In this document: in pieces, positions 2,621 to 25,777 of the stretch
How positions within the stretch are numbered: the first letter of the stretch is position 1
Layout of the letters: each line of letters begins with the position of its first letter
Assembly (NCBI RefSeq): GCF_002197845.1
Contig: NZ_NIDE01000001.1
Location: forward strand, 124,001 to 188,000
Direction of reading: 5' to 3'
Length of the DNA: 64,000 nucleotides
From: Fimbriiglobus ruber
Lineage (GTDB): Bacteria > Planctomycetota > Planctomycetia > Gemmatales > Gemmataceae
The notes under the pieces: generated by a model
What the model was told of the DNA's origin: nothing
Database searches by the model: none
What the model saw: only the letters and a program-made list of their open reading frames with translations
Position numbers and translations under genes: made by a program

Positions 2621-3973
2621 ATGGCCGGGCCCGCCGACTCCTGCCGATTGTTAATCGTGGACGACGAGGCCCCCCTCCGTCGAACCTTGCGGACCGCGCT
2701 GGAGAGCATGGGGAACACCGTCAGCGAGGCCGCGAACTCCACTAAGGCGCTCGAACTCCTTCGCCTACAGATGTTCGACGCCGCGTTTCTCGACTTGCGG
2801 CTGGGCACGGAGAAGGGGATCGAGTTACTACCAGAACTACTAAGCGTGAGCCCTAGTCTGCACGTCATTATCGTCACCGCGCACGCCAGCATCGATTCGG
2901 CCGTGGAAGCCATGCGGCGGGGGGCATTCGACTACCTGCCCAAGCCGTTCACGCCCAACCAACTGCGGGTCGTTCTGGACCGCTCGGCCCTCGTCCGAGG
3001 GTTGAAGAACCGAGTCGCGGCACTGGAAGAACAGGTCGGCGGCTTCGCGCCCGAGACCGAACTGACGACGCTCGAACCCACCATGCGATCGGTGCTGGAA
3101 GTCGCGTTCCAGGTCGCGCCGTCCGAAGCGACCCTGTTGCTCCGCGGGGAGAGCGGCACCGGGAAGGGCGTGCTTGCGCGGGCCATCCACGCGCGGAGCG
3201 CGCGGGCTCGCCGGCCGTTCGTCACGGTTCACTGCCCGAGCCTGTCGGCCGAGTTGTTGGAAAGCGACCTGTTCGGGCACGTCCGTGGGTCGTTCACCGG
3301 GGCCGTGCGCGACGCGCGCGGGAAGGTCGAGGCGGCCCAGGGCGGGACGCTGTTTCTGGACGAGATCGGCGACCTCCCGCCGGCCATGCAACCGAAACTC
3401 TTGCGGCTCCTTCAGGACCGCACTTACGAACGGATCGGCGATGCCGACCCTCGCACGGCGGACGTGCGGATTATGGCGGCTACCAACCGAGATCTTGAGG
3501 ACGCCGTCAAGACGGGCCGGTTTCGCGAAGACTTGCTCTACCGGCTCAATGTCATCGAGCTAACACTACCGCCGCTCCGTATGCGCCGGAAGGATGTCCT
3601 GCCGTTGGCCAGACACCTTCTCGGTTTCTTCGCGCGCCAGGCTGGGAAATCGATCACCGGCTTCACTCCGGAAGCGGAAGCCGCGATGGGTGCGTACCCG
3701 TGGCCCGGGAACGTGCGCGAACTCCGCAACGCCGTCGAACGCGGGGCGATCCTGGCCCGCGACGCGCTGGTCGGACTGGAACACCTGCCCGGCCAACTGA
3801 CCGGGACGACGACCGCAAGGGTCGAAGTCGGCGGGCCGGTGACGTTGGAGGCACTGGAGGCGGAGCATATTCGCCGCGTCGTTGCCTCTGCCCCCTCACT
3901 CGACGACGCGGCCCGGATGCTAGGGATCGACCCAAGTACCCTTTATCGCAAGCGGAAACGAACAGGATCTTAA
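2621..3973 (+). CDS. Sigma-54-dependent response regulator, NtrC family
   Basis: The 450-residue protein has the three NtrC modules: an N-terminal receiver with phospho-acceptor Asp near residue 58 (FLDLRL), an AAA+ domain with Walker A GESGTGKG near 176, the sigma-54 contact loop as GSFTGA near 222 (usual form GAFTGA) and Walker B TLFLDEIGDL, and a C-terminal Fis-type helix-turn-helix ending near LYRKRK. It would remodel sigma-54 RNA polymerase at -24/-12 promoters. The ATG at 2621 is preceded by AAGGGGAC; an in-frame TTG at 2495 has no comparable site. It is transcribed away from the kdp operon, whose promoter looks sigma-54-type, so it may be the kdp activator. No cognate kinase is adjacent. 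Confidence 0.92.
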   Translation: MAGPADSCRLLIVDDEAPLRRTLRTALESMGNTVSEAANSTKALELLRLQMFDAAFLDLRLGTEKGIELLPELLSVSPSLHVIIVTAHASIDSAVEAMRRGAFDYLPKPFTPNQLRVVLDRSALVRGLKNRVAALEEQVGGFAPETELTTLEPTMRSVLEVAFQVAPSEATLLLRGESGTGKGVLARAIHARSARARRPFVTVHCPSLSAELLESDLFGHVRGSFTGAVRDARGKVEAAQGGTLFLDEIGDLPPAMQPKLLRLLQDRTYERIGDADPRTADVRIMAATNRDLEDAVKTGRFREDLLYRLNVIELTLPPLRMRRKDVLPLARHLLGFFARQAGKSITGFTPEAEAAMGAYPWPGNVRELRNAVERGAILARDALVGLEHLPGQLTGTTTARVEVGGPVTLEALEAEHIRRVVASAPSLDDAARMLGIDPSTLYRKRKRTGS

Positions 3974-13367: not shown

Positions 13368-14459
13368 GTGTCGCCCGGTTCGCTCCGACCTTACCGCCCG
13401 GCGATCCTGTCCCTCCTACTCGTGGGCGTGGTTTTTGTCGTCGACCTGAACCTTCCCCTTGGCGTCGCGAGCGCGGTCCCGTACACCTTTGCCGTCTTGT
13501 TGGCGGTCAACGCCCCGTTCCGCTGGTTCGGCCACGCGGTCGCGGCCGGGTGCGTGGTGTTAACCATCGCGAAGATGGAGATCGTGCCCGAACGGGGTAC
13601 GACCGAGATGTGGAAGGTGATCGTCAACCGCGCGCTGGCCTGTTTCTCCATCAGTATGACGCTCTTCCTCGGCGTCCTCCGCAGGCGGGCGGAATCCCGC
13701 CGGGCGCGGGCCGAGGAGCGGGCGCAGGCGCACATGGCCGACCTGGCCCGGCTCGGCCGGCTGACGACCGCCGGGCAACTCGCCACCGGGATCGCCCACG
13801 AACTCAACCAACCCCTCACGGCCGTCTGCCTCCAGGCCGAAATGGCGGAGCGGTTCGCGGCCCTGGGCGACGACGGGCGAGAAAGCTTGTTCGAATGCCT
13901 GCGCGAAATCGCGGACCAATCGCAGCGGTCGGCGGAAATCGTTCGCACGCTCCGACGCTCGCTCCGGCGAGAGCCCCCGACCCCGGCCGCGGTCGATCTG
14001 GCCGAGGTAATACTGTCGGTGGTCCGGCTCATCGACTGGCAGATCCGCCGGGCCGACGCCGAGCTACAATTGCATTTCATGGCCGGGCTGTCCGTGGTGA
14101 TCGGGCACCGGGTGCAACTCGAACAGGTGGTCATGAACCTCGTTCAGAATGCCATTGAAGCGATCGCAGACAGGAATGACGGGCCGCGGGTCGTCAGGAT
14201 CGAAACGGCTGCCGACGGCCCGGCGCGCGTCGCCGTGACGGTGTCCGATACCGGAATCGGCCTCCCAATGAGCGGGGCCGATCAGGTGTTTGAACGATTC
14301 TTCACGACCAAGTCGGACGGCATGGGGATGGGCTTGGCCATCAGCCGGTCGATCGTCGAGGCCCACGGCGGACGGCTCGTCGCCCGTTCGGGTGTCGAGC
14401 AGGGGGCAGTGTTTATGTTTTCGTTGCCGGTCGAACGGGGGAGCGGGAGTGGACGTTGA
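13368..14459 (+). CDS. Membrane sensor histidine kinase, FixL/DctB-like
   Basis: The 363-residue kinase opens with three or four hydrophobic segments (about residues 10-105) with almost no extracytoplasmic loop, then a short coiled coil, HisKA (GIAHELNQPLTAV, His near 146) and HATPase_c (N box MNLVQNAIEAI, DTGIGLP, GMGLAIS). The HELNQPL form is usual for kinases paired with FixJ/TodT-type LuxR regulators. The GTG at 13368 follows GGAGAAG at good spacing. The next gene, which it overlaps by 11 bases, is exactly such a regulator, so the two form one system. A compact membrane sensor suggests it senses a membrane-related or redox signal, but no haem-PAS domain is present. Confidence 0.9.
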   Translation: MSPGSLRPYRPAILSLLLVGVVFVVDLNLPLGVASAVPYTFAVLLAVNAPFRWFGHAVAAGCVVLTIAKMEIVPERGTTEMWKVIVNRALACFSISMTLFLGVLRRRAESRRARAEERAQAHMADLARLGRLTTAGQLATGIAHELNQPLTAVCLQAEMAERFAALGDDGRESLFECLREIADQSQRSAEIVRTLRRSLRREPPTPAAVDLAEVILSVVRLIDWQIRRADAELQLHFMAGLSVVIGHRVQLEQVVMNLVQNAIEAIADRNDGPRVVRIETAADGPARVAVTVSDTGIGLPMSGADQVFERFFTTKSDGMGMGLAISRSIVEAHGGRLVARSGVEQGAVFMFSLPVERGSGSGR

Positions 14460-15066
14460 GACGACTATTTTTGTTGTGGACGACGATGAGGCGATCCGGA
14501 AGGCGCTCACGACAGCCGGCAAACTCATCGGCCGGCCGGTCCGTTCGTTCGCGTCGGCCGACGAATTCCTTGCCGGCTACGATCCCGCCGTTCCGGGTTG
14601 TCTCGTTCTCGACATCAAGATGCCGGGCATGACGGGTGTCGAACTTCAGCGGAAACTCATCGCGGACGGGACCGCCATCCCGGTCATTGTGGTCAGCGGG
14701 CACGCCGACGTCCGAATCGCCGTAGAGGTCATGAGCCGGGGGGCGGTGACGTTGCTCGAGAAGCCGTTTCGGCTCGACGAACTCCTCGCACACATTCGGA
14801 CTGCCATAGAAACGGACGCCGTTAATCGTGCGAAAATAGCCGAGCGAGCCGAAACCGAATCCCGACTGGCGGCCCTCACGCCGAAAGAGCTGGAGGTTCT
14901 CGACCTGATTGTCTCGGGTAAGACCAATAAGGACATTGCCGCTGTGTTGGGATTGAGTTTGCGAGCCGTGGAAGACCGGCGGGCCCGCCTGATGAAGAAG
15001 GCCGAAGCCCGCTCCATCGCCGACCTGATTCGGCTCCGCGACAGCCTTGCGGAAGGTGACATTTAA
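14449..15066 (+). CDS. FixJ-family response regulator (REC-LuxR HTH)
   Basis: The protein (205 residues) has a receiver (FVVDDDEAIR acidic pocket, acceptor Asp in LVLDIKMPGMTG near residue 54, conserved Lys in LLEKPF) and a C-terminal LuxR helix-turn-helix beginning LTPKELEVLDLIVSGKTNK. The GTG at 14449 has GGGGGAGC just upstream and lies inside the kinase gene, which ends 11 bases later. The next gene downstream in the same direction is the nitrate/nitrite operon, about 500 bases away, but a large palindrome and a separate promoter intervene, so co-transcription is unlikely. Confidence 0.92.
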   Translation: MDVETTIFVVDDDEAIRKALTTAGKLIGRPVRSFASADEFLAGYDPAVPGCLVLDIKMPGMTGVELQRKLIADGTAIPVIVVSGHADVRIAVEVMSRGAVTLLEKPFRLDELLAHIRTAIETDAVNRAKIAERAETESRLAALTPKELEVLDLIVSGKTNKDIAAVLGLSLRAVEDRRARLMKKAEARSIADLIRLRDSLAEGDI

Positions 15067-15067
15067 G

Positions 15068-15173
15068 CGCAATACCGTTCGTCGAAGGGGCAATGGCGGT
15101 CGCTTTCGTGACGTAAGTCCTTATTCGATGCCCCTTGGCCGTCCTGGGCGGGGCTTCGACGAACGGTATTGCG
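15068..15173. repeat. Long inverted repeat with nested stem after the response regulator
   Basis: CGCAATACCGTTCGTCGAAG (15068-15087) is exactly complementary to 15154-15173. A second stem lies inside (AGGGGCA near 15087-15093 with TGCCCCT near 15129-15135). The outer arm begins two bases after the regulator's stop codon. It resembles a small non-autonomous palindromic element, and could also stop transcription. Confidence 0.7.
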
Positions 15174-15333
15174 TTTAAGCGCCTCGAATTTGTGCAACAT
15201 GCCCGATTCGCGGGCCGCCGCCGCCTTTGGCTTGTGCAACCCAGCAAGTCACGAACCCATCTTTTTTGACGTGTTTCTTCACTGAGTTGAGATTTTTTCA
15301 GAGCTTCGTGATCGTCACTTTCCCTGGCTATTT

Positions 15334-15381
15334 ATGTGGTTAGCCACGTATATCACTTTCGGAAAACGTGGGAAACCACGT
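15334..15381. promoter_or_regulatory. Two 16-bp palindromes 32 bp apart, putative activator sites
   Basis: ATGTGG-TTAG-CCACGT (15334-15349) and ACGTGG-GAAA-CCACGT (15366-15381) share the form A-Y-GTGG-N4-CCACGT. Their 32-bp spacing is three helical turns, placing both on the same face of DNA. They lie about 79 and 47 bp (centres) upstream of the start predicted from the -24/-12 motif, where enhancer-binding activators of sigma-54 promoters act. The regulator is not identified. Confidence 0.6.
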
Positions 15382-15394
15382 ATCGAGGAGTCGT

Positions 15395-15410
15395 TGGCAA
15401 ACTCTTTGCA
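15395..15410 (+). promoter_or_regulatory. Sigma-54 promoter (-24/-12) of the nitrate/nitrite operon
   Basis: TGGCAAACTCTTTGCA matches the TGGCACG-N4-TTGCA consensus at all but two positions, with the invariant GG (15396-15397) and GC (15408-15409) correctly spaced. Transcription would begin near 15421, leaving a leader of about 140 bases before cobA. Nitrogen genes are classical sigma-54 targets. Confidence 0.65.
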
Positions 15411-15560
15411 TTGTTGGTGCTCGACCGAAAGCCTTTTCGTCGTGTTTGGCTGATTGATAACTCCCGCAGGCCTGCTGCCGGAGTCAGGCGTGTCGTTGCT
15501 GATGGGCCGAATGAATTGCCGCGGAGGTCTCCCTTCCGTCGGTCTGGGGAAGTGCGTCCT

Positions 15561-16349
15561 GTGAGAGACCGAAACGCTACTACCGGGATGGTTTCCCTCG
15601 TCGGTGCGGGCCCCGGGTCGCCCGACCTGATTACCGTCCGCGGGCTGGACCGCGTTCGCGCGGCTGACGTGGTGGTGTTCGACGCCCTCATCCACCCCGA
15701 CCTGCTGGCCGCCGCCCGGTCTGACGCAGAGATGGTGTACGCCGGCAAACGGGGCTACTGCGTCGGTTCGACGTTGCAAGAAACGATCAACGATCTGCTC
15801 GTTCACCGAGCCCGGCAGGGGTTGCGGGTCGTCAGGTTGAAGGGTGGCGATCCCTGCGTGTTCGGCCGCGGCGGGGAAGAGGCCGAATACCTCGCGGAAC
15901 GTGGAGTCTCGTTCGAGATCGTCCCCGGCGTGACCACAGCCGTCGGTGCGTGTGCCGCCGCATCGATCCCGTTGACTCATCGCGACGTGGGTCAGGCGGT
16001 GGCCCTGGTCACCGGACACTTCGACCCGGACTCGTCCGACTGCACAATCGATTGGGTCGCGCTCGCCGGCATGAGTACGGTCGTGGTTTATATGGGCCTG
16101 CGACACCTCGACCGGATCGCCGCGAAACTCATCGCCGCCGGGCTCCCCGCCGATACCCCGGCGGCCGTCGTCGCCCGGGCCACACTACCGGATCAAGTCG
16201 TAATCGACGCCCCCCTGGAAGACCTCGCTGCCCGTGTCGAGGTTGCCGGTGTGACCGCCCCGGCCGTCATTGTCGTGGGCGAATCGGTCCGGGTCCGGGC
16301 CCGCTTGCTTTCACTCTCCACGTCCGCCGCGCAAGGAGTCCTCGCGTGA
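15561..16349 (+). CDS. cobA: Uroporphyrinogen-III C-methyltransferase
   Basis: CobA (SUMT) adds two methyl groups to uroporphyrinogen III to give precorrin-2, the precursor of siroheme needed by the nitrite reductase encoded next. The family blocks are present: LVGAGPGSPDLIT, VVFDALIHPDLL, YAGKRG, RLKGGDPCVFGRGGEEAEYL and IVPGVTTAVGACAAASIPLTHRD. With the GTG at 15561, which has GGGGAAG eight bases upstream, the product is 262 residues; an ATG at 15588 would give 253. It is the single-domain form, without the CysG dehydrogenase/ferrochelatase part. Its stop overlaps the nirB start by four bases (GTGA), so the two are translationally coupled. Confidence 0.93.
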   Translation: MRDRNATTGMVSLVGAGPGSPDLITVRGLDRVRAADVVVFDALIHPDLLAAARSDAEMVYAGKRGYCVGSTLQETINDLLVHRARQGLRVVRLKGGDPCVFGRGGEEAEYLAERGVSFEIVPGVTTAVGACAAASIPLTHRDVGQAVALVTGHFDPDSSDCTIDWVALAGMSTVVVYMGLRHLDRIAAKLIAAGLPADTPAAVVARATLPDQVVIDAPLEDLAARVEVAGVTAPAVIVVGESVRVRARLLSLSTSAAQGVLA

Positions 16350-18811
16350 TCGTCGCCAACACCATCCCGACCACCCCGGTCACCCGCCGCCGGCTCGTCA
16401 TCATCGGGAACGGCATGGCCGGCGCCCGTTTCGCGGAAGACGTCATCGCGGCCGACCCGAACCACGAGTTCGACATCGTGATGTTCGGCGACGAACCTTA
16501 CGGAAACTATAACCGCATCCTCCTCTCGAACGTGCTGAACGGCGCGCAGGACGCCAAGGAAATCTTCCTCAACCCGCTCGACTGGTACGCGGCCAACGGC
16601 GTCACGTTGCACGCCGGCAAGCGCGTGACGCGGGTCGACCGCGAGAACAAGGTCGTGTACGCGGACGGCGTCGAGGAGCCTTACGACGTCCTCGTGTTCG
16701 CCACCGGCTCGCGGCCGTTCGTGCCCCCCATTCCGGGGACCACGCTCCACGGCGTCTTCCTCTTCCGCACGATCGACGACTGCCGGAACATCGCGTCGTT
16801 CGCCCAGGGCAAGAAGCACGCGGTCGTGATCGGCGGCGGGCTCCTCGGGCTCGAAGCCGCCAAGGGGCTCATGACCCACAACCTTGACGTGACAGTCGTC
16901 GAGATGGGGCCGTGGCTGATGGGCGTACAACTCGACGAGGCGGGCGGGAAAGTCCTCCAACAGACCATTGAAAAGCTCGGCATCCGGGCGCTGACGAGCG
17001 CGAGTACCAAGGAGTTCGTCGGGCACACGGAGGTGCGGGCCGTCCGGTTCGCGGACGGGACGGAGATCCTGGCCGACATGGTCGTGGTCTCCGCCGGCAT
17101 CCGGCCGAACAAGGAACTGGCCCAGGAGTGCGGGCTGACCGTCGACCGCGCGATCGTGGTCGACGACACGCTCCAGACGAGCGACCCGAACGTGTTCAGC
17201 GTCGGCGAATGCGCGCAACACCGGGGCATGGTTTACGGCCTCGTCGCCCCGATCTGGGAGCAGACGAAAGTCCTGGCAGGGCGTCTGACGGGCAAGAGCC
17301 CGGACGCCGAATACGTCGGATCGAAGCTGGCTACCAAGCTCAAGGTGATGGGCGTCGAACTCGCCAGCATGGGCCGCGTGAGCGACGTGAAGCCGACGGA
17401 CGAGGTCGTCCAATTCAGTGAGCCTGCTCGTCAGGTCTACTGGAAGGCGATCGTCCGGGAGGGCAAGGTGGTCGCCGGTTGTCTCCTGGGCGACCTCGGT
17501 CCGGCCGACGACATCGTCCGCCACTTTATGCAGGAAACACCCGCTCCGGCCCGTCGGTTGGAACTGTTCTTCGGGGCGAAAACCGAAGTCGCGGGCGGCG
17601 ACTTCTCGCTCGCCGATATGCCCGACGACCGGCAAATCTGCGACTGCAACGGCGTCAGTAAGGGAACGATCTGCGGCGCGATCCGCGCGGGCAAGTGTAC
17701 CGTCCAGGCGGTCGGCAAAGCGACCAGGGCAGGGTCCGGGTGTGGCTCGTGCAAGAAGTTGGTCAAGGGGCTGATCGAGGCGGTCGCCGGTGAGGTCAAG
17801 GCCGACCCGGCCGACGGCTGGTACGTCCCCGGCGTCCCGCTCGATAAGCCGGCGCTGGTGGCCGAGATTCGCGGCCGCGGGCTCAAGAGCGTGTCGGCCA
17901 CCCTCCGGGCGCTTGCGACCGGGGAGGACGAGAAGACCAAGATGGGCCTCGCGTCCTTGCTCAAATCGCTCTGGGGCAAGGAATACGTCGACGAGCGGGA
18001 CGCCCGGTACGTGAACGACCGGGTCCACGCGAACATCCAAAACGACGGCACATTTTCCGTCATCCCCCGGATGTACGGCGGCGTCACCACGGCCGACGAC
18101 CTCATCAAGATCGGCGAGGTGGCGAAGAAGCACCAGGTCCGCATGGTCAAGGTGACGGGCGGCCAACGGATCGACCTGCTCGGCATCACCAAGGACAAAT
18201 TGCCCGAAGTCTGGCGCGACCTGGGCATGCCGTCCGGGCACGCTTACACGAAAGCGTTCCGGACGTGTAAGACGTGCGTCGGGAGCGAATTCTGCCGGTA
18301 CGGGACCAACGACTCGACCGCCCTCGGCATCGCGATCGAGAAGAAATTCCAGGGCTTCGAGTTCCCGGCCAAGGTGAAGATGGCCGTCAGCGGGTGCCCG
18401 CGGAACTGTGCGGAAAGCACGGTCAAGGACGTCGGCGTGATCGCGACTGAGGGGGGCGAGTGGGAGGTCTCGATCGGCGGGGCGGCCGGGGCGAGCGTCC
18501 GGAAGACGGACATCCTCTGCCGGGTAAAAACGCAGGAAGAAGCTCTCCAAATCATTGGTCGGTTCTTGATTTACTACCGCGACAACGCCAAGTGGCTCGA
18601 ACGGACCTACGATTTCGTGCCGCGCGTCGGCCTGGACAAGATTAAAGCCATCCTCCTCGACGACTCGCTCGGGCTCTGCACGTACTTCGACACCGAGGTT
18701 CAAAAAACGGTTGATGCCTTCGTGGACCCCTGGCTCGAACGCGATCGGCCCGTTTACGCCGGCCAGTTCGAGGACGCGCGGACGATCGCGCTCCCGATGG
18801 TCGTCGGGTGA
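16346..18811 (+). CDS. nirB: Assimilatory nitrite reductase [NAD(P)H], large subunit
   Basis: NirB reduces nitrite to ammonium with NAD(P)H. The 821-residue protein has the full set of domains: FAD/NAD(P)-binding (VIIGNGMAG near the start, VVIGGGLLGLEAAKG), a BFD-like [2Fe-2S] domain (CDCNGVSKG then GSGCGSCKKLV), a ferredoxin-like half domain and the siroheme/[4Fe-4S] region with cysteines in CKTCVGSEFCRYG and SGCPRNCAES. The length is normal. The GTG at 16346 overlaps the cobA stop and follows AAGGAG. NirD follows after 96 bases. All cofactors can be bound by visible residues, so nitrite reduction should be functional even though the nitrate reductase gene downstream is broken. Confidence 0.96.
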   Translation: MIVANTIPTTPVTRRRLVIIGNGMAGARFAEDVIAADPNHEFDIVMFGDEPYGNYNRILLSNVLNGAQDAKEIFLNPLDWYAANGVTLHAGKRVTRVDRENKVVYADGVEEPYDVLVFATGSRPFVPPIPGTTLHGVFLFRTIDDCRNIASFAQGKKHAVVIGGGLLGLEAAKGLMTHNLDVTVVEMGPWLMGVQLDEAGGKVLQQTIEKLGIRALTSASTKEFVGHTEVRAVRFADGTEILADMVVVSAGIRPNKELAQECGLTVDRAIVVDDTLQTSDPNVFSVGECAQHRGMVYGLVAPIWEQTKVLAGRLTGKSPDAEYVGSKLATKLKVMGVELASMGRVSDVKPTDEVVQFSEPARQVYWKAIVREGKVVAGCLLGDLGPADDIVRHFMQETPAPARRLELFFGAKTEVAGGDFSLADMPDDRQICDCNGVSKGTICGAIRAGKCTVQAVGKATRAGSGCGSCKKLVKGLIEAVAGEVKADPADGWYVPGVPLDKPALVAEIRGRGLKSVSATLRALATGEDEKTKMGLASLLKSLWGKEYVDERDARYVNDRVHANIQNDGTFSVIPRMYGGVTTADDLIKIGEVAKKHQVRMVKVTGGQRIDLLGITKDKLPEVWRDLGMPSGHAYTKAFRTCKTCVGSEFCRYGTNDSTALGIAIEKKFQGFEFPAKVKMAVSGCPRNCAESTVKDVGVIATEGGEWEVSIGGAAGASVRKTDILCRVKTQEEALQIIGRFLIYYRDNAKWLERTYDFVPRVGLDKIKAILLDDSLGLCTYFDTEVQKTVDAFVDPWLERDRPVYAGQFEDARTIALPMVVG

Positions 18812-18907
18812 GCCGGTCGCCAAGGGTTGACACCCCGGGCAGTCTGGGGCGGACTGCCGTCTGGTTCCGAACCAGTTTGTGTGTTTCCAAATTTCCAGGG
18901 TGATGCG

Positions 18908-19228
18908 ATGCCGACGGCGACACTGACGCAGGTCAAATTGTGCGTACTCGACGACCTGCCTGAGGGTCTCGGCCGCGCGTTTACCGTGGGCGGGGCACCG
19001 ATCGCGGTGTTCCGCACGCGGACCGGAACGGTACTCGCCGTGGACGGCGTCTGTCCCCATAAGGGCGCCCCGCTCGCCGACGGGATGCTCGCCGGCGATC
19101 AGGTGGTCTGCCCGTACCACGCGTTCAAATTCGACACCCGAACGGGCGAGTGCGACCAGCCCGGAACCTGTGCCCTCAAGACGTACCCGGTCGAGGTCAG
19201 TGCCGGTGTGGTCGTCGTGACGGTCTGA
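18908..19228 (+). CDS. nirD: Nitrite reductase small subunit (Rieske-type)
   Basis: NirD is the 106-residue small subunit that associates with NirB. It has the Rieske [2Fe-2S] pattern CPHKG and CPYHAFKFD, with ligands Cys-X-His and Cys-X2-His, so this copy should hold a cluster; in some bacteria NirD has lost these residues. The ATG at 18908 follows CAGGGTG. It is placed between nirB and nasA in the operon. A weak hairpin lies just after its stop. Confidence 0.93.
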   Translation: MPTATLTQVKLCVLDDLPEGLGRAFTVGGAPIAVFRTRTGTVLAVDGVCPHKGAPLADGMLAGDQVVCPYHAFKFDTRTGECDQPGTCALKTYPVEVSAGVVVVTV

Positions 19229-19280: not shown

Positions 19281-21143
19281 GTGAGTCTCTTGTCGATCCT
19301 GAGTCGCCAACCTCTGACGCTCGCCCGGACCGAGTACGCATTACGGACGCACTGTCCTTACTGTGCGTTCCAGTGCGGAATGATATTGGGTGATGGCGAC
19401 GGGCGGCCCGAGCAGGTGGCCGGCGACCCACACTTCCCGGTCAATAACGGCCAGATGTGTATCAAGGGGTGGAGTTCTCACACCCTCCTGCGGCACCCGC
19501 GGCGACTCACCAAGCCTCTCATCCGCGACAAAATCACCGACGAGTATCGCGAGGCCGACTGGGACGAGGCACTCGATTTGATTGCGGACAAACTGAGGAC
19601 GATCCGCGCGGAATCCGGGGCGAACGCGGTCGGGGCGTTCGGGTCGGGCGCTTTGACCAACGAAAAGGCCTACCTGCTGGGGAAGTTCGCCCGCCTCGCT
19701 CTCGGAACCGCCCACATCGATTACAACGGCCGTTACTGTATGTCGAGCGCGGCGGCGGGTCAGAACCGGGCGTTCGGCATCGACCGCGGGCTGCCGTTCC
19801 CGGTCGCCGATATCGAACGCGCCGAGGTCATTTTCCTGGCCGGGGCCAACGTCGCCGACACCCTGCCGCCGATCATGCAGTGGTTCGAGCGGCAGAAGAA
19901 GGCGGGCGGCCGGTTGATCGTGTCCGACCCGCGGCGCACGATGACCGCGCGGGCGGCCGACCTGTTCCTCCAACTCACGCCGGGGACCGATCTCGCGCTG
20001 GCCAACGGGATGCTCGCCGTCGCCATCGAAGAAGGATTGGTCGACAAGTCTTACGTCGCGGAACGGACGATCGGGTTCGAGGCCATTCGCGCGATCGCCC
20101 TCCAGTACCATCCCGCCCGGGTCGAACGTCTGACCGGCATCCCGGAAGCCCAGATCCGCACGGCAGCCCGTTGGCTCGCGACCGCCAAGTCCGCGATGAT
20201 CTTGTCGGCACGGGGGGCGGAGCAGCACAGTAAGGGCGTGGACACGGTCCACTCACTCATCAACCTCGCCCTCGCGTTGGGCAAGGTCGGTAAGTCTTAC
20301 AGTGGGTACGGATGCCTGACGGGGCAGGGGAACGGTCAGGGCGGCCGCGAGCACGGACAGAAGGCGGACCAGCTCCCGGGCTACCGGCTGATCGAGGTCG
20401 ACGCGCACCGGGCGGCCGTCGCGAAGGTCTGGGGCGTCGACCCCAACGTCCTCCCGCGTAAGGGTCGCAGCGCCTTTGAATTACTCGACTCATTGGGGCC
20501 GGATGGTATCCGCGCGTTGGTCGTGATGGGGTCCAACGTCGCGGTGGCATCGCCCGACGCCGACCGCATCGAGAAGCGACTGAAGGCACTCGATTTCCTG
20601 GTCGTACTCGACGCCTTTCACAACGAAACGACGGCCCAGGCACACGTCGTCCTGCCCGTTTATCAGTGGGCGGAGGAAGAGGGGACGCTCACGAACCTGG
20701 AAGGGCGGGTGATCCGCCGCCGCGTGATCGCCCGCCCCCCGAACGGCGTCCGCGGCGACATCGACATCCTCCGCGACCTGGCCGCCCGACTCGGCGTCGG
20801 CGACAAGTTCGATTTTTACAGCCCCCGGGAAGTGTTCGACGAATTCCGCCGCGCGACGGCCGGCGGCCTCGCAGATTATAGCGGCATTACTTACGAGAAG
20901 ATCGACGCGAACGACGGCGTCTTCTGGCCGTGTCCGGCCCGGTCCAACGTCGGACCTGACGCAGCCCCCGACTCTAGCGACGGCGAAGTCTACGACCACC
21001 CCGGCACGCCCCGCCTGTTTGCCGACCGCTTCTACCACCCGGACGGCCGCGCGAAATTTTTCCCCGTCGAACATCGCGCCGCGGGCGAGGAACCGGACGC
21101 CACGTTTCCGATTTCAGTAGTTCAAAATTGGAGGTGGTCTTGA
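19281..21143 (+). pseudogene. nasA: Assimilatory nitrate reductase catalytic subunit, N-terminal 5/6, disrupted by an IS
   Basis: This is a NasA/NarB-type molybdopterin nitrate reductase. The N-terminal [4Fe-4S] ligands are present (HCPYCAFQCGM and NNGQMCIKGW), then the Mo-bis-MGD core with DYNGRYCMSSAAAGQNRAFG and GYGCLTGQGNGQGGREHGQK. Host sequence runs to 21114, in the codon after DATFPI; the reading frame then goes a few codons into the insertion sequence and stops at 21143 after about 620 residues. The missing part is found intact and in frame at 22400-22773. The polypeptide made here lacks the C-terminal cofactor-binding domain and should be inactive. The GTG at 19281 is taken as start, 52 bases after nirD. 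Confidence 0.93.
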
Positions 21144-21147
21144 AAAA

Positions 21148-21211
21148 AACGCATGTTTCGGCTCCATAGTGGGTTAGCACGACCTAGCCATGGAGTGGCG
21201 AAACATGCGTT
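21148..21211 (+). promoter_or_regulatory. Stem-loop covering the transposase start codon
   Basis: Bases 21148-21167 and 21190-21211 form a long stem; both arms share AACGCATGTTTCG and CTCCAT in complementary form. The ATG at 21190 and the in-frame ATG at 21205 both lie in the 3' arm. A transcript entering from nasA would fold and hide the start, while one starting within the loop would not, a known way for IS elements to avoid activation by outside transcription. Confidence 0.6.
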
Positions 21212-22347
21212 CTGCCAAGAAGCCTAAACTGTGTTCCCGGCAAATTCAAGATCGGGCTGCGGAACTGATCTCTCCGATCTTCAGACCATCGAGTTCGCGC
21301 AAATGTTCTGCGCCGGTTCTGCTCCAGGTCGTGTTGACGGCTGCGGCCAACATCATCTCGTTGTTCGGGGCCTGCCTTCGTCTGGGTACGATCTCCGATC
21401 AGACGGCGCGCAGCGAATTGAAGTCGCGTCTGCCCAAACAGCGCAAGCCGCTCGAAGCCAAGCTGAACCACGCCTTGCGCGAACCGCTGCCGCCGAACAC
21501 GCGCCGCCGGTCTCGGGATCTGGCGATCGATTACCACGAAATTCCGTATCACGGACACGGTCCCAAGAATCACGTCCGGGGCAACAAGCCACGCTCGGGG
21601 ACGACCACGTTTTTTACCTACGCCACCGCCTGTCTGATTCATCATGGGCACAGGTATACCCTGGCGTACACGTGGGTCCGGGCGGAAGACTCGACGGTCG
21701 AGGTTCTGCAACGACTCCTGACCGAGGTCGGGAACAGCGGCGTGAGGATTCGCAAACTGCTTCTGGATCGGGGGTTTTTCAGCGTCGCCGTGATGCAGTT
21801 TCTCCAGGAGCGCAACTGTCCCTTCCTGATGCCCGTGGTGATGCGCGGGCGGAAGCCGCGTCGCGGGAAGAAGTCCACGGGATGGCGGATGTTCCGGCGC
21901 AAGCCCGCCGGCTGGTATCGTCACACGCACCGTCACAAGGGTGAGGAGGTGACCGTGAGGGTCTGTGTGAGTTACAAGAGCTACCGCCACCACCGGACGA
22001 ACAAGCGGCGGGCCAAGACGTTGGTATTCGCCAGCTGGCGTGTGTCGGGTGCACCGAGGGACGTGCGTGACGCGTATCGCACACGGTTCGGGATCGAAAG
22101 CAGCTATCGGCAACTCGGTCAGGCGCGAATCCGGACCAGTACCCGGAACCCGATCCTGCGATCGTTCTTCGTGGGTCTGGCCCTGTTGCTGCGAAACCTT
22201 TGGGTGTGGTTTCAGGCGCTCTGGTTCGGGGAGGACAGGCACCCGCGAGTGCAAGCGGCATCGAAACGATTCCAGTTCAGGTGGATGTTGGCCGTACTTG
22301 CTCAAGGAAATAACGACAACGAAACGCTTTCTGATACGCGAACATAA
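21190..22347 (+). CDS. ISH3-family DDE transposase
   Basis: The 385-residue protein carries the DDE transposase blocks in the form seen in ISH3-type elements: LAIDYHEIPYHG (first Asp), a GTTTFFTYATACL strand, KLLLDRGFFSVAV (second Asp) and YRTRFGIESSYR (Glu in the YREK-like region). It would cut and rejoin the 14-bp ends of the surrounding element. The ATG at 21190 is used; the ATG at 21205 is an alternative. Family assignment rests on my recollection of ISH3 motifs such as GTT-FHAYAT and RFGIESSYR, so ISH3 is likely rather than certain. No frameshift or internal stop is present. Confidence 0.9.
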   Translation: MEWRNMRSAKKPKLCSRQIQDRAAELISPIFRPSSSRKCSAPVLLQVVLTAAANIISLFGACLRLGTISDQTARSELKSRLPKQRKPLEAKLNHALREPLPPNTRRRSRDLAIDYHEIPYHGHGPKNHVRGNKPRSGTTTFFTYATACLIHHGHRYTLAYTWVRAEDSTVEVLQRLLTEVGNSGVRIRKLLLDRGFFSVAVMQFLQERNCPFLMPVVMRGRKPRRGKKSTGWRMFRRKPAGWYRHTHRHKGEEVTVRVCVSYKSYRHHRTNKRRAKTLVFASWRVSGAPRDVRDAYRTRFGIESSYRQLGQARIRTSTRNPILRSFFVGLALLLRNLWVWFQALWFGEDRHPRVQAASKRFQFRWMLAVLAQGNNDNETLSDTRT

Positions 22348-22394
22348 CTGTTTAAAGAATAAAGGGTTTCACTCACGGGGATTTTGAACTACTG

Positions 22395-22773
22395 GATTTA
22401 CTTCACCACCGGCCGGTACAAGGAACACTACAACTCCGGCGCACAGACGCGAATGGTCGAGCGGCTAAACGCCTCCCGCCCGCGACCGCGGCTCCAGGTT
22501 CACCCCAGGCTAGCCCGGCGACACGGCATCGCGACTGGGTCCGTCGTCGTACTGGAAAGCCGCCGGTCGAAGGCCGAATTCGAGGCGGAATTGACGGTCG
22601 ACATTCGCCCGGACACGGTGTTCGCCCCGTTCCATTGGGGCGGTAAGCAAGCAGCGAACAAGCTGACCAACCCGGCCCTCGACCCGACGAGCCGGATGCC
22701 CGAGTTCAAGTATGCTGCCGTGCGCGTAGCCGGGGTAAGAGGAAGCAGTTTCGCCGCAGATGAACGCAGATAA
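22395..22773 (+). pseudogene. nasA: Assimilatory nitrate reductase, C-terminal fragment after the IS
   Basis: This is the molydopterin dinucleotide-binding C-terminal domain of the disrupted nitrate reductase, with YFTTGRYKEHYNSGAQTR, VHPRLARRHGI and FHWGGKQAANKLTNPALDP. The first five bases are the duplicated target GATTT. A TTG at 22384 inside the IS end could initiate, but there is no ribosome-binding site. The final residues SSFAADERR and the stop codon are supplied by the first arm of a dispersed palindrome at 22750, so the original C-terminus may already have been altered before the IS arrived. Confidence 0.93.
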
Positions 22774-22843
22774 ACGCGGATCAGAAGAGATCAGATGCTT
22801 ACATCTTTCTGATCCGCGTTTATCTGCGTTCATCTGCGGCGAA
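22750..22843. repeat. Perfect inverted repeat, 37-base arms, 20-base loop
   Basis: Bases 22750-22786 and 22807-22843 are exact reverse complements. The arm contains GCAGATGAACGCAGATAAAC. It lies over the end of nasA and just before nasB. A related sequence (GTAGATGCACGCGGATCAG) forms the hairpin after narK, so this is one member of a dispersed palindromic family. Confidence 0.9.
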
Positions 22844-22861
22844 GAATTGGTGATTTTCGAC

Positions 22862-24310
22862 ATGAAGAAGCGCCTCGCAATCATCGGCAACAGAATGGCC
22901 ACCGGCCGGCTGCTCGACGAATTGAGCCGCCGGAACGCGGGGCGGATGTACGCCATCACCGTGTTCGGCGAGGAACCGCACGGGTGTTACAACCGCATCC
23001 TGCTCGGCCGCGTTCTGTCCGGGGGTACGACCGACGAGATCACCCTGAAATCGCCCGCGTGGTACGCCCAAAACGATGTCACCCTGGAGTCGGGCGTTAG
23101 GGTCGAGAAGGTAGACACGGTTGCCCGGCAACTCGTTACCACTGACAGTGAGACACACTCTTACGACGCGGTTGTGTTCGCCACCGGGTCCGCGGCATTT
23201 ATCCCGAAAATCGACGGACTGAGATTGGCCGAAGGAACCGTGAAGCCGGGCGTGTTCGTCTTCCGCACCGTGGCGGACTGTACCGCCATGCGGGCTTACG
23301 CCCACCCGGCGGCGAGTGCGGTGGTAGTGGGTGGCGGGCTCCTGGGTCTGGAAGCCGCCAAGTCGCTATGCGATCTCGGGCTTCACGTCACAGTCCTGCA
23401 GAACTCCGACACGCTGATGAACGCGCAACTCGACAAACTCGGCGGCGACATGCTCCGGCGGGCGATCGAGAAGATGGGGATCTACGTGCGGACCGGCGTG
23501 TCGACGCAAGAGGTCATTGGGGACGACAAGGCGACCGCCGTCCGCCTCAGCGACGGCTCGGTCTTCCCCGCCGAACTCGTCGTCCTGGCGTGCGGGATCG
23601 CCCCGCGGACCGAGGTCGCGAAGGCGGCGAACGTGCCGGTCAAGCGGGCCATCGTCGTCAACGACCGCATGTCGACCGCCATCCCCGGCGTCTATGCGGT
23701 CGGCGAGTGCGCCGAACACGACGGCAAGGTGTACGGTTTGGTCGAGCCGATCTGGGACCAGTGTGGGGTACTCGCGGATGTCCTGACTGCGGCCAACCCG
23801 CGGGCGCGGTACACCGGGTCGAAGGTCTACGCCCGGCTCAAGGTCGTCGGCGTCGAGGTCGCGAGCATGGGCCTGACCGAGTCCGAGCGGGACACGGACG
23901 AAGTGATTCAGGTGATCGAAGACCGTAAGGGGATCTACCGCAAACTGATCGTCCGCGACGGCAAACTCGCTGGGGCCATGCTCGTCGGCAGCGCCGAGGC
24001 CGCCCCGGTGTTGATCCAACTCTACGACCGCGGTGACCCCCTCCCACCCAACCGGCTCGACGTGTTGGCCTCCCCGGGCGGTGGGCTGAGCGGCCCGGAA
24101 GCCGCGGGGCCGGAGGTGTGCAACTGCCACCACGTCACGGAGGGCGCACTTGTCGAAGCCATCAAAGGCGGTTGTACGACTCTCCCCATGCTTTCTGAAT
24201 GCACCAAGGCCGGGACCGGCTGCGGCTCGTGCCGCGGCCAACTCGCGAACCTGCTTCTGAAACACGCGCCCCGTGCCGAAGCCGTCGGCGCGAACGGCGT
24301 GGCACACTGA
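22862..24310 (+). CDS. nasB: FAD-dependent electron-transfer subunit of assimilatory nitrate reductase (NasB-like)
   Basis: The 482-residue flavoprotein resembles the front half of NirB: FAD-binding LAIIGNRMATGRLL, an NAD(P)-binding VVVGGGLLGLEAAKS, FAD contact GVYAVGECAEHDGKVYGLV, then a C-terminal BFD-like [2Fe-2S] domain (CNCHHVTEG and GTGCGSCRGQL). It lacks the siroheme region. Such proteins pass electrons from NAD(P)H to NasA. The ATG at 22862 is chosen because upstream in-frame sequence lies in the palindrome; there is no strong ribosome-binding site. It lies after the broken nasA and before narK in the same direction, so its partner is absent unless nasA is repaired. Confidence 0.88.
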   Translation: MKKRLAIIGNRMATGRLLDELSRRNAGRMYAITVFGEEPHGCYNRILLGRVLSGGTTDEITLKSPAWYAQNDVTLESGVRVEKVDTVARQLVTTDSETHSYDAVVFATGSAAFIPKIDGLRLAEGTVKPGVFVFRTVADCTAMRAYAHPAASAVVVGGGLLGLEAAKSLCDLGLHVTVLQNSDTLMNAQLDKLGGDMLRRAIEKMGIYVRTGVSTQEVIGDDKATAVRLSDGSVFPAELVVLACGIAPRTEVAKAANVPVKRAIVVNDRMSTAIPGVYAVGECAEHDGKVYGLVEPIWDQCGVLADVLTAANPRARYTGSKVYARLKVVGVEVASMGLTESERDTDEVIQVIEDRKGIYRKLIVRDGKLAGAMLVGSAEAAPVLIQLYDRGDPLPPNRLDVLASPGGGLSGPEAAGPEVCNCHHVTEGALVEAIKGGCTTLPMLSECTKAGTGCGSCRGQLANLLLKHAPRAEAVGANGVAH

Positions 24311-24388
24311 CGCTGCCCAAACCCGACTCCCTCCCCGAAGACCTCTCCAGTCCCTGTTGTCCTTCCCACCGAACGAGAGGCCCGAGTG

Positions 24389-25777
24389 ATGTCTACCGCT
24401 GTCAGCCCCGATGAGCCGGCCGGCCCGCGCCAGCGCGTGCTGTGGGTGTCCACGATCGTGTTCACGATGTTGTTCGCCGTCTGGCTGATGTTGGGCGTCC
24501 TCGGGCTCGAAATGAAGAAAGACGCCGTGCTCATGCTCGGCGCGGAGGCCGCGGAGACGCTCGCCCCGGAGGCCAAGAAGGCCGCCATCGAGTCGCGGTT
24601 CGAATGGCTCCTCGCGACGGCCATTCTGTCCGGTGCGATCTTCCGACTGACGTTCGGCATCTGGGCCGACAAGTACGGCGGGCGGACCATGATGGTTCTT
24701 CTCTTGCTGGTGTCAGCCGTCCCGACGTACCTGATCGGGCAGGCGACGAGTTACGCCGAGCTGCTCGCGTGTGCCGCCCTGTTCGGGCTGGCCGGGAACT
24801 CGTTCACCGTCGGGATCGCGTGGAATTCGGCGTGGTTCCCGGATCGGTCGAAGGGGACCGCCCTCGGGGTGTTCGGGGCCGGTAACGTTGGGGCGTCCGG
24901 GACGAAGATTCTCGTAATTCTGGTGCCGTCGGTGCTGACACTCGTTCCCGTCGCCGGGTACGCGGGCGGGTGGATTCCCGGCGGCTGGCGGTTCGTTCCC
25001 ACGATGTACGCCGCCCTGCTCGTGTTGGCCGCCATCGCGACCCTGGTGCTGACGCCGAAGACCGATCGTAAGCCGGGTCGGGGCCGCACGCTGACCGAAA
25101 TGCTGGCTCCGTTGAAATACATGCGCGTCTGGCGGTTCGGCCTGTACTACGTCGTCGTGTTCGGGGCTTACGTCGCGCTATCCGCGTGGCTGCCGAACTA
25201 CTACAAGACAAACTATTTCGCCGACAGGCCTGCCCAGGAAGCCGTCCAACTCGCGGCCCTGATGACCGCGGCCTACATCTTCCCGGCCGGTCTGCTCCGC
25301 CCCCTCGGTGGCTGGCTGTCCGACCTGTACGGCCCGCGCGTCGTGACGTACGCCGTGTTCATCGTCATGACGCTCGCGACGATCCCGCTTTGTCTTCCGT
25401 CGAGCGTGTTGCGTCTGGACGTCTGGTCGTTCACGGCTCTGATGTTCGTCGTCGGCGTCGGCATGGGAATCGGAAAGGCGAGTGTCTACAAGTACGTCCC
25501 GAACTATTTCCCGAACGACGTTGGCGCGGTGGGCGGACTCGTCGGCGCCTTGGGCGCGTTGGGCGGGTTCTTCCTCCCGCCGATGTTCGGCATGTTGGGG
25601 CGAACCACCGGTTCCCCCCAGGCCGCTTTCTACGCCCTCCTGGGGCTGACGGTTGGCAGCCTGGTATGGTTGCACGTCGTCGTGCTGCGCCTGAAAGCGG
25701 CTAGCCGGGCAGCGGCGACCGGGACGACAGACGCGGCGGCCAACCGCGAGCCGGTCGGTGCGCTGAGTGGGGTGTGA
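24389..25777 (+). CDS. narK: Nitrate/nitrite MFS transporter, NarK/NasA family
   Basis: The 462-residue protein has about 12 membrane helices. Nitrate/nitrite porter motifs are seen: GNSFTVGIAWNSAWFP and GVFGAGNVGASGTK, a glycine-rich signature in helix 5, and a second G-rich stretch GAVGGLVGALGALGGFFLP. It moves nitrate or nitrite across the inner membrane, by proton symport or nitrite exchange. The ATG at 24389 follows GAGAGG; the GTG immediately before it is less likely. It closes the operon, followed by a bidirectional hairpin. Even with nasA disrupted it could still supply nitrite to NirBD. Confidence 0.94.
   Translation: MSTAVSPDEPAGPRQRVLWVSTIVFTMLFAVWLMLGVLGLEMKKDAVLMLGAEAAETLAPEAKKAAIESRFEWLLATAILSGAIFRLTFGIWADKYGGRTMMVLLLLVSAVPTYLIGQATSYAELLACAALFGLAGNSFTVGIAWNSAWFPDRSKGTALGVFGAGNVGASGTKILVILVPSVLTLVPVAGYAGGWIPGGWRFVPTMYAALLVLAAIATLVLTPKTDRKPGRGRTLTEMLAPLKYMRVWRFGLYYVVVFGAYVALSAWLPNYYKTNYFADRPAQEAVQLAALMTAAYIFPAGLLRPLGGWLSDLYGPRVVTYAVFIVMTLATIPLCLPSSVLRLDVWSFTALMFVVGVGMGIGKASVYKYVPNYFPNDVGAVGGLVGALGALGGFFLPPMFGMLGRTTGSPQAAFYALLGLTVGSLVWLHVVVLRLKAASRAAATGTTDAAANREPVGALSGV

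Follow-up and report, generated by a model that had tools for sequence, protein, structure and literature searches.

A conserved palindrome at the predicted sigma-54 promoter of a nitrate/nitrite operon in Fimbriiglobus ruber and its relatives: a likely response-regulator box

Genes and promoter features of the locus

The window analysed here is a single stretch of 64,000 nucleotides from Fimbriiglobus ruber (genome G000 of the comparison). It carries an operon for nitrate and nitrite use, preceded by genes for a histidine kinase and a response regulator. The region between the regulator gene and cobA holds the predicted control sites:

13368–14459, + strand: histidine kinase; Pfam matches to HisKA and HATPase_c only, core resembling FixL, N-terminal part without a Pfam match
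14449–15066, + strand: FixJ/StyR-like response regulator (receiver domain plus GerE helix-turn-helix), the proposed palindrome-binding protein; putative start codon
15180–15196, no strand: possible third NtrC-like site, CGCCTCGAATTTGTGCA
15200–15216, no strand: NtrC-like site TGCCCGATTCGCGGGCC; proposed enhancer, weak in this genome
15222–15238, no strand: NtrC-like site CGCCTTTGGCTTGTGCA, 22 bp from the TGCCCGATTCGCGGGCC site; proposed enhancer, weak here
15334–15349, no strand: palindrome 1, ATGTGGTTAGCCACGT, centred at about -79 from the predicted start; proposed FixJ-type response-regulator box, with a counterpart in 18 cobA promoters
15366–15381, no strand: palindrome 2, ACGTGGGAAACCACGT, 32 bp 3' of palindrome 1, centred at about -47
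15395–15410, + strand: predicted sigma-54 -24/-12 element, TGGCAAACTCTTTGCA; predicted transcription start near 15421
15561–16349, + strand: cobA, uroporphyrinogen-III C-methyltransferase, first gene of the operon
16379–18811, + strand: nirB, nitrite reductase large subunit, above the TIGR02374 cut-off; start approximate
18827–19228, + strand: Rieske protein, nirD-like by position
19281–21143, + strand: nasC-like assimilatory nitrate reductase, N-terminal part
22384–22773, + strand: C-terminal molybdopterin-binding part of the nasC-like nitrate reductase
22760–24310, + strand: FAD/BFD reductase, like the first half of NirB
24386–25777, + strand: NarK-like nitrate/nitrite transporter, below its cut-off

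A DDE transposase gene (21190–22347) splits the nasC-like gene (19281–22773), and nitrate reduction by this enzyme may therefore be lost in this strain; in the relative G074 a single open frame of 776 codons covers both nasC-like parts. Directly 3' of the response-regulator gene is a perfect 19-bp inverted repeat (GCAATACCGTTCGTCGAAG; arms at 15069–15087 and 15154–15172, with 66 bp between them), possibly a terminator or a mobile-element remnant.

The two palindromes have the form AYGTGG-N4-CCACRT, with the -24/-12 element directly 3' and cobA-nirB about 150 bp further on. The original prediction had described them as lying 32 bp apart before a -24/-12 element, and they are found at those positions; no other stretch of the window matches AYGTGGN4CCACRT exactly, and allowing up to two mismatches raises the count to 17, against 9.4 expected. 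The exact palindrome occurs at five places in the 12.36 Mb genome (12,363,577 bases), compared with two for a reversed-pattern control, and two of the other three places are inside long reading frames. A pair of GTGGN4CCAC cores 5–35 bp apart is present once in the genome (control, 0). The -24/-12 element taken alone is common, with 71 places in the window at up to one mismatch (55 expected), four of them exact, and its weight comes from conservation across promoters and not from rarity. In TGGCAAACTCTTTGC the GG and GC stand ten bases apart within a TGGCAC-N5-TTGC-like sequence, as in sigma-54 promoters. The genome has one match to the RpoN DNA-binding domain, and RpoN is present in 94 of the 102 genomes of the order.

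Conservation of the promoter among relatives

NirB orthologues (at least 68% identity) are present in 29 of the 102 genomes, own included. Palindrome-bearing cobA promoters were gathered from NirB loci, kinase loci and palindrome searches, giving 18, all from one family of relatives: G000, G092, G087, G018, G015, G022, G011, G008, G009, G026, G010, G074, G094, G024, G012, G016, G025 and G047 (cobA was checked in G025 and G012). The conservation of the palindrome itself is partly selected, since these promoters were chosen by it; the -24/-12 element played no part in the choice, except for G012, which also came up in the combined scan described below. Distances were measured between the G that opens the GTGG core and the T of TGG. 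Searched over 20–139 bp, every one of the 18 promoters has its best -24/-12 match either 46–49 bp (15 promoters) or 58–59 bp (three) from palindrome 1, against a mean of 1.3 and a maximum of 7 of 18 in 1000 letter-by-letter shuffles, the six allowed distances having been fixed after the distances were seen and close relatives such as G008 and G009 being counted separately. The longer distance, found in G000, G092 and G087, is one helical turn more than the shorter; the match in G087 is poor. The element is thus very probably a genuine sigma-54 promoter, as originally proposed, and the expected recurrence of the palindromes before orthologous operons is seen in the 18 cobA promoters of this family.

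Palindrome 1 is the conserved one. Palindrome 2 is strong (7–8 of 8 core letters) in only nine of the 18, and the best second site lies at 30–33 bp in 14, ties counted (shuffle mean 3.0, maximum 9). A scan for two cores 5–35 bp apart gave matches in 22 of the 102 genomes of the order, and in five of the 22 they precede cobA-nirB (the surroundings of seven hits were read). When 14 promoters were aligned without gaps, the columns above 1 bit fell in palindrome 1 and the A/T-rich stretch flanking it, in the -24/-12 element and in the NtrC-like sites, and no -10-like block was among them. In G022 (L104) and G047 (L105) cobA and the kinase-regulator pair are arranged divergently; both loci have the palindrome and a -24/-12 element but no nirB match beside cobA.

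The kinase-regulator pair and the NtrC-like sites

Neither protein of the pair is FixL or FixJ proper, since both score under the NCBIfam equivalog cut-offs (kinase against FixL, 156.5 bits, cut-off 850; regulator against FixJ, 180.6, cut-off 255). The closest solved relatives of the regulator are StyR (2.7e-36) and FixJ (3.4e-35), and it has no AAA+ domain. The kinase probably resides in the membrane, judging from its hydrophobic stretches; no Pfam sensor domain was found in it. Orthologues of the kinase (best match below 1e-58) occur in 19 of the 102 genomes, own included, with at most 19 candidates scored per genome; the next best genome reaches 1.4e-39. For the regulator, all candidates were scored in genomes without a match, G051 excepted. 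The pair adjoins the palindrome in 14 of the 18 promoters, lies elsewhere in two and is missing in two. In G087 it is about 600 kb from the promoter, and in G016 it is on another contig, the promoter being near a contig end. The kinase gene is mostly divergent in the relatives, beginning some 150–260 bp away. The locus shows two features of FixJ/StyR-type boxes: a 6-N4-6 inverted repeat and, close to it, genes for a kinase and for a regulator with receiver and GerE domains. Among the matches listed for relatives of the kinase elsewhere, none of 80 loci has a CobA/NirB match (tblastn, 1e-12), a set that did not include the kinase copies of this family. Two of these loci (L238, L271) show weak molybdopterin-oxidoreductase matches (31% and 27%), and five of the 80 have a palindrome-like match.

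Among 27 scored NirB genomes, palindrome and kinase are both present in 13, the palindrome alone in two, the kinase alone in none, and neither in 12 (Fisher, 6e-6, with kinship ignored). Left out of this table were G059 (distant NirB) and G089 and G090 (promoter not on the contig), and in G046 and G054 the palindrome was searched for in the 1.5 kb upstream of nirB only. Six kinase-bearing genomes lie outside the table: G022, G047 and G025, where the palindrome is present; G089 and G033, where the promoter is not on the contig or there is no close NirB; and G020, in which NirB has no match and the pair is present with no palindrome next to it. Genomes with the same genus code can differ: G000 has both and G007 neither, G092 and G087 have both and G091 neither, G047 has both and G044–G046 neither. 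Three independent pairs are available on well-supported branches of the NirB tree, in which the kinase tracks the palindrome in 2.9 of 3 on average and the opposite is never seen (p 0.25). The tree itself, of 30 genomes, disagrees with the genus codes (e.g. G044 and G094; G091 apart from G092), so that whole operons may have moved, a hint at transfer of this one between lineages.

The exceptions G012 and G024, which have good palindromes and no kinase-regulator pair, form a sister pair (100/99) nested in a group whose other members have both. Compared with its relative G025, G024 lacks about 1.57 kb, nearly the whole pair, and both flanks align. G012 retains a 42-codon kinase remnant at the kinase place, its cobA side aligning with G025 and its far flank not found within the fetched 9 kb. 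Both appear to carry traces of recent loss of the pair. The pair has also been lost from G019, with both flanks aligning; here both palindromes have decayed, while the -24/-12 element is intact and the NtrC-like sites are kept. Decay of the box after loss of the regulator is what would be expected if the palindrome serves the regulator, and this fits the pattern in G019, G012 and G024. Pair and palindrome are usually neighbours, and for this reason shared inheritance alone could explain much of the co-occurrence; two cases speak against mere linkage: in G087 both are present though unlinked, and in G019 the pair is gone and the palindromes have decayed. The palindromes are likely to be the box of the adjacent two-component system, with binding by the regulator predicted from the site form and its distribution.

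The textbook NtrC site is TGCAC-N7-GTGCA. The dyad AYGTGG-N4-CCACRT is unlike it, in agreement with the original prediction, and NtrC as binder of the palindromes was ruled out by sequence. NtrC-like sites, which the original prediction did not mention, lie further upstream, about 150–215 bp before the predicted start. Site pairs were scored with the textbook consensus in 21 promoters: the 18, that of G019, and two that lack the palindrome (G072 and G073). At spacings of 21–23 or 31–34 bp, picked after the sites had been seen, the best pairs total 305, against 244.5 in shuffles (sd 4.4, maximum 257); a downstream control stretch gave 221 (own shuffles 235.6), and spacings out of phase likewise scored above shuffles (277 vs 243.6). 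Twelve of the 21 promoters have a pair that begins 160–164 bp before the -24/-12 element with a spacing of 32 bp. The half-sites depart from the textbook letters: the pair in the window reaches 14 of 20, with a shuffle average of about 11.6 per promoter, and those of G025, G026, G047 and G073 reach 12–13. An upstream NtrC-like enhancer is a probable feature of these promoters for the family, and a less clear one in this genome. A candidate NtrC homologue in G024 (L318) scores 442.9 bits to NtrC, below the cut-off of 558.6.

The same kind of site was scored before amt, for which there are 14 matches spread over 12 genomes, two of which have two amt genes (six of 20 rows were dropped as second gene pieces). 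Ten of the 14 have an upstream -24/-12 match of at least 8 of 10, and the other four were left out of site scoring. In these ten loci the NtrC-like sites, the only ones compared with shuffles, total 79 against 63.6 (sd 2.2, maximum 70). The original prediction had pointed to nir and amt genes of relatives as places to look for the palindrome. It was found before cobA-nirB, but a core occurs within 1.5 kb upstream of only one of the 14 amt matches (G045, 1158 bp away). Because amt has the NtrC-like site and essentially not the palindrome, the former looks general and the latter operon-specific.

An integrating promoter and its alternatives

The comings and goings of the palindromes together with the kinase-regulator pair suggest that two signals are combined at one promoter. 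We consider it quite probable that NtrC-like general nitrogen control, sigma-54 and an operon-specific FixJ-type box are integrated here. Sigma-54 RNA polymerase would use the element at 15395–15410, and an NtrC-like AAA+ activator, bound at the helically spaced TGC-N11-GCA-type pair upstream, would impose general nitrogen control. The palindromes, between the NtrC-like sites and the promoter, would be the box of the FixL/FixJ-like system encoded at 13368–15066, and dimers of the phosphorylated regulator, placed on one face of the DNA, would tune expression to another signal, which might be nitrate, nitrite or redox state. What the sequence displays is a conserved promoter with the palindrome at fixed distances from it, the NtrC-like pair (found family-wide, weak here) and the joint occurrence of palindrome and gene pair; the regulator as ligand of the palindromes, an NtrC homologue as ligand of the upstream pair and the nature of the signal are inferred. 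Regulators of the FixJ type are not known to open sigma-54 promoters by themselves, which counts against this arrangement. Co-activation by it is somewhat favoured, and repression is possible though less readily expected; the lean towards co-activation comes from the promoter distance, which shifts by a whole helical turn and leaves no single fixed overlap with polymerase. A bolder statement is that, in this planctomycete family, a FixJ-type regulator lacking an AAA+ domain acts directly on a sigma-54 promoter through two in-register sites between an NtrC-type enhancer and the polymerase, that the promoter computes nitrogen starvation AND a nitrate/redox signal sensed by the kinase, and that AYGTGG-N4-CCACRT is a previously undescribed operator; on this our judgement is evenly balanced.

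The original prediction took the palindromes for the enhancer of a sigma-54 activator, the one encoded at 2621–3973 being a candidate. Phased palindromes near a sigma-54 promoter would suit an undescribed NtrC-family AAA+ activator, and so would their retention in G012 and G024 without the FixJ-type pair. Activators were collected as Pfam matches in 12 genomes, with 80 loci fetched from eight (nine loci only from G091), and comparisons are among the matches listed. Six activators are reciprocally common to the fetched sets of G012 and G024, and since all six are also matched reciprocally in the palindrome-less G045 and G046, no activator among those compared follows the palindrome, whereas the FixJ-type regulator, which has no AAA+ domain, does. 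One activator, of the L309 type, seemed at first to track the palindrome; as a palindrome-specific binder it is ruled out, being found in 91 of the 102 genomes, including G045, G046 and G007, which lack the palindrome. The protein encoded at 2621–3973 is likewise ruled out as a conserved binder, its matches among the fetched activators of the palindrome-keeping G012 and G024 being only 42–43%. In addition, palindrome 2 at about -37 or -47 is near for an enhancer, NtrC-like sites are found upstream, and in G019 the promoter and the NtrC-like pair persist with the palindromes gone. The enhancer reading is thus improbable, although a ubiquitous activator whose site vanished in some genomes would be compatible with the comparison.

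It is also improbable that the box belongs to a sigma-70 promoter of its own, or to autoregulation of the divergent kinase gene, with the distance to the -24/-12 element incidental. FixJ-type regulators usually work with sigma-70, and the kinase gene is divergent in most relatives, beginning about 150–260 bp away; but the pair of G000 and G092 lies upstream in the same direction, which leaves cobA as the only gene that the palindromes directly precede, the fixed distances point to a functional connection, and the gapless alignment of 14 promoters has no -10-like block among its columns above 1 bit. Rather less improbable, yet still unlikely, is a variant of the integrating model with reversed sign, in which the FixJ-type regulator on the palindromes acts mainly as a repressor or anti-activator, blocking the loop or the polymerase at the sigma-54 promoter. 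At the 46–49 bp distance (15 promoters) the place of palindrome 2 directly precedes the -24 element, and the site is strong in seven of these; according to excerpts of PMC2442086, StyR dimers occupying two sites can be activating, and a looped, repressed state in which they close the promoter is proposed. Simple occlusion is weakened by the array standing one turn further out in G000, G092 and G087, and palindrome 2 is weak or absent in half of the promoters. Integration of the two signals is the reading preferred here.

Nitrate assimilation is known to be controlled in two tiers, for example by NtrC plus NasR or NasT antitermination. The proposed integrating promoter resembles this in joining general nitrogen control to a pathway signal, but the second tier appears to be a kinase with a predicted DNA-binding regulator of FixJ type rather than an RNA-binding antiterminator. 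As in NtrC/sigma-54 control, a -24/-12 promoter has TGCAC-N7-GTGCA-like sites upstream, and the same kind of site precedes amt; what differs is the extra response-regulator box between NtrC-like sites and promoter. As with StyR, TodT and FixJ, a receiver and GerE regulator is encoded with a kinase beside its target operon, and the 16-bp palindrome shares with StyR-type boxes the 6-N4-6 form and the presence of more than one site per promoter (excerpts of PMC5874301 and PMC2442086). In the first of these excerpts StyR-like regulators are described as recognising ATAAACN4GTTTAT, and GGTGTTCGCACC is proposed as the TdiR box, the site being upstream of -35 regions (PMC5874301). The locus differs from StyR, TodT and TdiR in its half-site, AYGTGG, in its target, a nitrate/nitrite operon and not aromatic degradation, and in its conserved -24/-12 promoter. 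Excerpts of a sigma-54 survey report NAD(P)H-nitrite reductase genes as enriched for sigma-54 in Pseudomonadota and the conservation and function of NtrB/NtrC as limited in Planctomycetota, and mention NasT antitermination (PMC12316311). In the open-access literature we found no description of a box, sigma-54 and NtrC-like sites in combination, and little on the regulation of nitrogen use in planctomycetes, for which the locus offers a concrete candidate operator, a candidate regulator and candidate NtrC-like sites. If true, the locus would illustrate how a response regulator that is not an AAA+ protein can act at a sigma-54 promoter.

Scans for the palindrome elsewhere touch on a possible wider regulon. 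Searching the 102 genomes for the strict palindrome RYGTGGTTWNCCACGT turned up 23 hits, spread over 18 genomes (control, seven); 13 are in cobA promoters, and several of the 10 elsewhere are inside long frames. No nitrogen gene was recognised near these 10 from frame beginnings, with family searches for three neighbouring proteins. The combined scan for palindrome and -24/-12 element gave 27 hits in 25 of the 397 genomes of the class (control, 10), and 14 of the 27 are cobA promoters of Gemmataceae. In G008 (L030, 4482 and 4524) and G011 (L033, 4670 and 4713) a similar pair of palindromes, 42–43 bp apart, lies upstream of chemotaxis-type genes, identified by Pfam in G008 (CheW and 4HB MCP) and by similar frame beginnings in G011; these loci are perhaps a second target of the palindrome regulator. 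The genome of the window itself also has a single strict palindrome, GCGTGGTTTACCACGT (C17:1640696; about 4697–4712 of L189), which is apparently intergenic and lies about 330 bp upstream of a gene for a BBP2-type porin.
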